Origin: Ignavibacteriota bacterium
Lineage (GTDB): Bacteria > Bacteroidota > Ignavibacteria > UBA10030
NCBI GenBank assembly: GCA_022616555.1
Contig: JAKEEG010000030.1
Location: forward strand, 1 to 42,426
Direction of reading: 5' to 3'
Length of the DNA stretch: 42,426 bases
This document shows positions 1-493 of this stretch, in pieces. The notes beneath the pieces were generated by a model that saw only the letters and a program-made list of their open reading frames with translations, was not told the origin of the DNA and did not search any database. The position numbers and the translations under genes were made by a program. Numbering within the stretch: position 1 is the stretch's first letter; every line of letters begins with the position of its first letter.

Positions 1-98
1 ACCGTCATCGGAGACACTCGGCGCTCGGATATCACTCGCCGGTTGACTTCGAACAATTACACTCTTAACTTCGTGTCCAACTTTTCGGGGAAAGATCA
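1..98 (+). mobile_element. Right end of an IS3-family insertion sequence (cut by window edge)
   Basis: The first 68 bases encode the extreme C-terminus of an IS3-type OrfB transposase. They are followed by a terminus reading TCCAACTTTTCGGGGAAAGA then TCA, ending at 98. IS3-family right ends usually read TCCAA-N-TTTT-N-GGGG...TCA, so the element boundary is placed at base 98. The rest of the element lies outside the window. Coding sequence of a different gene resumes immediately after it. Confidence 0.75.
3..68 (+). pseudogene. IS3-family transposase OrfB, C-terminal end (partial at window edge)
   Basis: The frame starting at base 3 reads [21 protein letters not shown] and then a stop at 66-68. 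The [17 protein letters not shown] pattern is the hallmark end of DDE transposases of the IS3 family (IS3/IS150/IS407 groups), just after the catalytic glutamate. Only about 21 residues are visible, so it cannot be judged whether the full gene is intact outside the window. It is labelled partial rather than truly broken. Confidence 0.8.
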
Positions 99-308
99 AT
101 CATTGCAAGAGGGTTACGTGTCTCTTATGTGAGTGACTTTGTACAAGCATTAAATATGTGTAAGAGAGAGTGTAGTTATTATGATTTTTGTGGTGGTAGC
201 TTCCCAAGTAACCGTTTTTCAGAACACGGTAGAATCGATATCAGAGAAACAGACCATTGTAAAGTTCATGATCAAGCATTAGTGGAGGCCATATGGGAAA
301 AATTATGA
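99..308 (+). pseudogene. Radical SAM/SPASM peptide maturase, C-terminal fragment cut by the IS
   Basis: The open frame continues from the IS end to a TGA at 306-308. It carries C-x3-C-x2-Y-x2-C-G-G-S-x-P-S-N (Cys codons at 159, 171 and 189), then about 20 residues later E-T-D-H-C (Cys 258). This matches the C-terminal SPASM domain of RiPP-modifying radical SAM enzymes, where C...C-x-Y-x-x-CGGG-x-P-x-N...ET-x-x-C is typical of the cyclophane-forming (GrrM/XyeB-like, triceptide) branch. The catalytic CxxxCxxC half is missing and replaced by the insertion sequence, so the enzyme is presumably inactive unless the other half is expressed separately. The stop overlaps the start of the next small gene (ATGA), as in translationally coupled pairs. 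Function class is well supported; substrate is inferred from the neighbour. Confidence 0.75.
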
Positions 309-493
309 GTGAGAGAAAACAAATATTTGAAAAAATTCTCTCCAAAAAAACAGCAATATTCGCAGCAGTGGCACTGTATAAACCAGCCAAAGTGAAAAAC
401 ATAGCACCGGACAAGGAAAAAGCAAATAGTAGCAGACTATATGCTTGCCCTTGGGATGAAAGTTCTGATGGCGGCTTTGATGATGCCAGTTGA
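305..493 (+). CDS. Candidate RiPP precursor peptide (62 aa)
   Basis: This small ORF starts at ATG 305, overlapping the maturase stop by ATGA. An alternative in-frame ATG at 293 has a GGAGG at 284-288, so the region has both a good ribosome site and coupling. The product has a basic, lysine-rich N-terminal half (leader-like) and a short acidic C-terminus, ACPWDESSDGGFDDAS. That tail holds W-D-E and F-D-D triplets, the aromatic-x-x arrangement crosslinked by three-residue-cyclophane-forming radical SAM enzymes. No homologue is recognised; the assignment rests on size, composition and position directly after a SPASM maturase fragment. Base composition is AT-richer than the following genes, consistent with acquired DNA. 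It could be an unrelated small protein. Confidence 0.5.
   Translation: MSERKQIFEKILSKKTAIFAAVALYKPAKVKNIAPDKEKANSSRLYACPWDESSDGGFDDAS

Follow-up and report, generated by a model that had tools for sequence, protein, structure and literature searches.

The window analyzed here is a stretch of 42,426 nucleotides from an Ignavibacteriota bacterium (contig JAKEEG010000030.1 of assembly GCA_022616555.1, designated C76). Its first 493 bases contain the right end of an insertion sequence (IS), the tail of a radical SAM/SPASM maturase gene, and a small open reading frame that overlaps this tail (Table 1). The genome assembly comprises 2.99 Mb in 99 contigs and is 98% complete, and the start of the window coincides with an assembly break.

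Table 1. Features at the start of the window and related copies in the assembly.
Feature	Position	Strand	Evidence
Right end of IS3-family insertion sequence (OrfB end and terminal inverted repeat), also contig start	1..98	+	Shared by about 18 contig ends whose flanks differ; rve_2 E 1.5e-12
Copies of the IS right end	Ends of contigs C5, C25, C36, C37, C42, C52, C54-C57, C61, C63, C75, C78, C79, C83, C84		Shared 25-mer
Last 69 codons and stop codon of the gene for an AmcB-type, putatively cyclophane-forming radical SAM/SPASM maturase; radical SAM domain missing	99..308	+	NF041718 76.8 bits; calibration; tree support 95/95
GGAGG, possible ribosome-binding site for ATG 293	284..288	+	Read from sequence
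Putative precursor peptide gene, C-terminus YACPWDESSDGGFDDAS	293..493	+	Open frame with coding-like composition; order and overlap as in AmcA genes; no AmcA model match

Downstream of these features, a methyltransferase (Pfam Methyltransf_31) with a CCGPGCCG stretch (574-1452), a small Cys-rich ORF (1549-1713), and an ArsR-like regulator (2227-2568) look like a putative arsenic-response group. A second AT-rich stretch with 36% G+C (1784-2193) separates the arsM-like methyltransferase from the regulator; its protein is presumably a member of the GxxExxY family.

The insertion sequence belongs to a multi-copy element. Its terminal 25-mer TGATCTTTCCCCGAAAAGTTGGACA occurs at 18 places in all, on this contig and on 17 others, one of which carries a single mismatch. 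Comparison of the contig ends of the genome revealed that the copies match one another through base 98 and that their flanks differ directly beyond it. The longest copy encodes a transposase/integrase tail matching Pfam rve_2 (E 1.5e-12), a domain typical of IS3-family OrfB. Both marks of the family are therefore present, the OrfB integrase C-terminus as the rve_2 match and the terminal inverted repeat as the common 25-mer end, and the IS3-family right end that had been read ahead of the frame in the earlier note is confirmed. Given a multi-copy IS at bases 1-98, the break at base 1 represents the usual assembly collapse, and base 98 marks the right end of the element. A relaxed-pattern search for the left end returned right ends only. 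The approximately 18 copies of this single right end account for many of the contig breaks in the assembly.

The frame reads IIARGLRVSYVSDFVQALNMCKRECSYYDFCGGSFPSNRFSEHGRIDIRETDHCKVHDQALVEAIWEKL from base 99 up to its TGA stop codon. Residues 21-54 of the encoded segment (window:99-305) carry the pattern C-x3-C-x-YY-x2-CGG-x2-PSN...ET-x2-C, whose columns are kept in homologues; this confirms the cysteine pattern described in the earlier note. The best NCBIfam profile for the tail is NF041718 (AmcB, cyclophane-forming), with 76.8 bits and E 1.6e-21 over positions 293-360 of 362. GrrM and XyeB had been named beforehand as the models to compare. The GrrM/OscB profile (TIGR04261) did match, as the second family at 48.6 bits, and the XyeB profile (TIGR04496) gave no match. 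YhhB (NF041707), likewise a cyclophane-forming SPASM enzyme as XyeB/XncB is, matched marginally (E 0.019).

To calibrate these scores, the tails of intact homologues were scored without the rest of the protein, and the GrrM bit score was subtracted from the AmcB bit score. Over the roughly 70 columns to which tail length restricts both this calibration and the tree, the difference came to +28 for the window, compared with a range of +28 to +35 among four AmcB loci and of -11 to -29 among five GrrM-type loci. In a tree of 33 tails (70 columns), the window tail grouped with eight AmcB tails at 95/95 support, outside the actinomycete cluster. Its identity to known AmcBs reaches at most 46%. The curated whole-protein cut-off of NF041718 (425 bits) is not reached, and it is beyond the range of a fragment of 69 residues, so the tail was filed as an AmcB-type remnant. 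The tail is thus that of a peptide-modifying radical SAM/SPASM maturase cut off by the right end of an IS3-family element, as the earlier note had proposed. Profile, calibration, and tree further support its assignment to the AmcB family, rather than to XyeB or to GrrM proper.

The N-terminal half of the enzyme, with the radical SAM domain and its CxxxCxxC motif, had been expected beyond the IS. A full-profile search with NF041718 found it neither in the window nor anywhere else in the assembly. Weak matches on contigs C93 and C65 proved to fall in unrelated radical SAM genes that are complete and look MoaA-like and SplB-like. With no N-terminal half anywhere in the assembly, a simple insertion, an IS-linked deletion, and a lost short contig are all possible accounts. 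An event other than simple insertion has a substantial claim, if somewhat below even: the IS may have mediated a deletion or rearrangement that removed the N-terminal half, or the junction may vary between strains in the sampled population. The absence of this half from a 98% complete assembly and the roughly 18 IS copies speak in favor of such an event, whereas an assembly fragmented into 99 contigs may simply lack a short piece flanked by two IS copies.

The small frame that follows was first described as a peptide of 62 residues whose start overlaps the maturase stop. This overlap stands: ATG 305-307 and TGA 306-308 share an ATGA of four bases. However, an alternative in-frame start at ATG 293, behind the GGAGG, gives 66 residues and a 16-base overlap with the maturase gene. 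In a first-order simulation, 62 codons stay open by chance in 2.3% of cases, which places the frame modestly above chance. Its G+C content by codon position (0.47/0.42/0.31) is close to that of the maturase tail (0.45/0.39/0.28).

Similarity searches with the peptide were largely negative. No Pfam or NCBIfam model matches it, and the AmcA models (NF041721-NF041723) yielded no match at E 1. Against a home-made profile of AmcA peptides from intact loci, its score fell within those of shuffled copies (rank 131 of 986). No second copy was found in the genome. The sole homologue candidate, a weak match in one other genome (G416), runs across a stop codon and has no neighboring radical SAM gene. The peptide region also matches contig C5 over 41 bases, but the site, in and around an rpl17-like gene, is unrelated, and the match was taken as chance. 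Few aromatic motifs occur in the peptide in all, W-D-E and F-D-D being the possible crosslink sites. In the chemistry of OscB-type enzymes, Trp is linked to Asn or Asp, and Phe to Asn, from residue i to i+2 (PMC11002830). On this basis, crosslinking is plausible at F-D-D and would be less usual at W-D-E, where Glu would have to be the partner.

Position, overlap, coding-like composition, and the W-D-E and F-D-D motifs indicate that the adjacent peptide is probably the substrate of the maturase. In favor of this earlier proposal, the peptide gene directly follows the tail, in the order of intact relatives; a similarity to AmcA models did not emerge. That the frame is instead spurious, or an unrelated small ORF, seems unlikely. 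The lack of AmcA similarity and of sound homologues would fit such a frame, yet it overlaps the enzyme gene, shares the codon-position composition of the enzyme tail, stays open at a length rarely reached by chance, and occupies the position of AmcA in intact loci.

Gene order in these intact loci is evidence for the AmcB type that is independent of the tail sequence. In Crossiella (L070) and Micromonosporaceae (e.g., L071, L073, and L083), a small gene comes after the enzyme gene and overlaps it; in L070, L071, and L083, this small gene matches AmcA models. The window has the same order, with the enzyme followed by the overlapping peptide gene (293/305-493). In the GrrM-type loci inspected (e.g., L072, L077, L099, L100, and L101), by contrast, a candidate precursor precedes the enzyme; in the window, the IS lies upstream and the peptide downstream. 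Two other loci deserve mention. In Frankia canadensis (L069:3897-5207), the AmcB frame continues into a C-terminal stretch matching AmcA model NF041721 (residues 382-428, 56.9 bits), an apparent enzyme-precursor fusion for which a sequencing frameshift is the alternative. On Nostoc plasmid NZ_CP040302.1 (L064:1421-3237), a small ORF ending in RLNWDNSFLQWNDSWGNGGNGH precedes a GrrM/OscB gene, and a phytanoyl-CoA dioxygenase family gene lies upstream.

Among known systems, AmcB/AmcA of Actinomycetota (NF041718 with NF041721, NF041722, and NF041723) offers the closest comparison. The C-terminal SPASM sequence, including the Cys pattern, and a [WY]-[VI]-x-[ED]-[FY] stretch before it are common to AmcB and the window tail, and in both the peptide gene overlaps and directly follows the enzyme gene. 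The window differs by its lineage, by its IS-cut enzyme, and by a peptide unlike the AmcA models, with two possible motifs (WDE and FDD) against the several W/F-x-N of AmcA. The GrrM/OscB triceptide maturases share the SPASM tail architecture and a cyclophane chemistry. A diverged GrrM/OscB enzyme beside an unrelated peptide, its true precursor having been upstream and lost, is nevertheless improbable: the second-ranking profile match, the peptide's lack of AmcA matches, and the existence of other SPASM enzymes in the lineage favor it, whereas the score difference, the tree, and a peptide overlapping the stop codon as in AmcB loci all point to AmcB.

Of 198 relatives, none has a genome with a hit above the AmcB cut-off, and searches for the tail came back empty for 395 genomes from the phylum and for 391 from the class. 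Other SPASM enzymes do occur in the lineage. The intact orthologous loci anticipated in related genomes were accordingly absent from these sets. The radical SAM domain anticipated ahead of such a tail is present in the intact AmcB proteins of distant homologues, no near relative having the gene. Exact-pattern scans gave no relatives among viral contigs or genome contigs, nor did an alignment search of viral contigs with the AmcB tail. Literature searches of the available library turned up work on the chemistry of triceptides and none on AmcB itself. The stretch at 99-493 has 38.5% G+C compared with 52.9% for the window, among the lowest 0.6% of comparable window stretches. Because of this low G+C content, import from another lineage is likely, and the simplest account is that the locus was first imported and later decayed through the IS.

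Taken together, these features most probably represent what is left of an AmcB/AmcA-like triceptide (RiPP) locus, in which an IS3-family element has cut an AmcB-type maturase whose substrate is the peptide. In its intact form, the enzyme would bind the adjacent small peptide by its leader and connect aromatic side chains of the core with the beta-carbon two residues further on, forming three-residue cyclophanes. Within the C-terminal core, F-D-D would be the most likely site and W-D-E a possible one. The IS3-family element now stops near codon 292 of the enzyme, and the second half of the SPASM region remains. Since the CxxxCxxC radical SAM domain is missing, we infer that the remaining piece cannot be active. 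More tentatively, and with the odds somewhat against it, the enzyme may be a deep-branching AmcB type outside Actinomycetota, and its substrate may belong to a novel class of precursors whose short acidic core (CPWDESSDGGFDD) carries crosslinks at Phe-Asp-Asp and perhaps also at Trp-Asp-Glu.

The locus is a new but broken member of the known AmcB system. With it, a lineage whose several hundred sampled genomes have no AmcB-type cyclophane maturase gains one, next to a candidate precursor that is recognized by no model. The value of this broken copy lies in pointing to intact relatives and in exemplifying IS decay within a probably imported RiPP locus.
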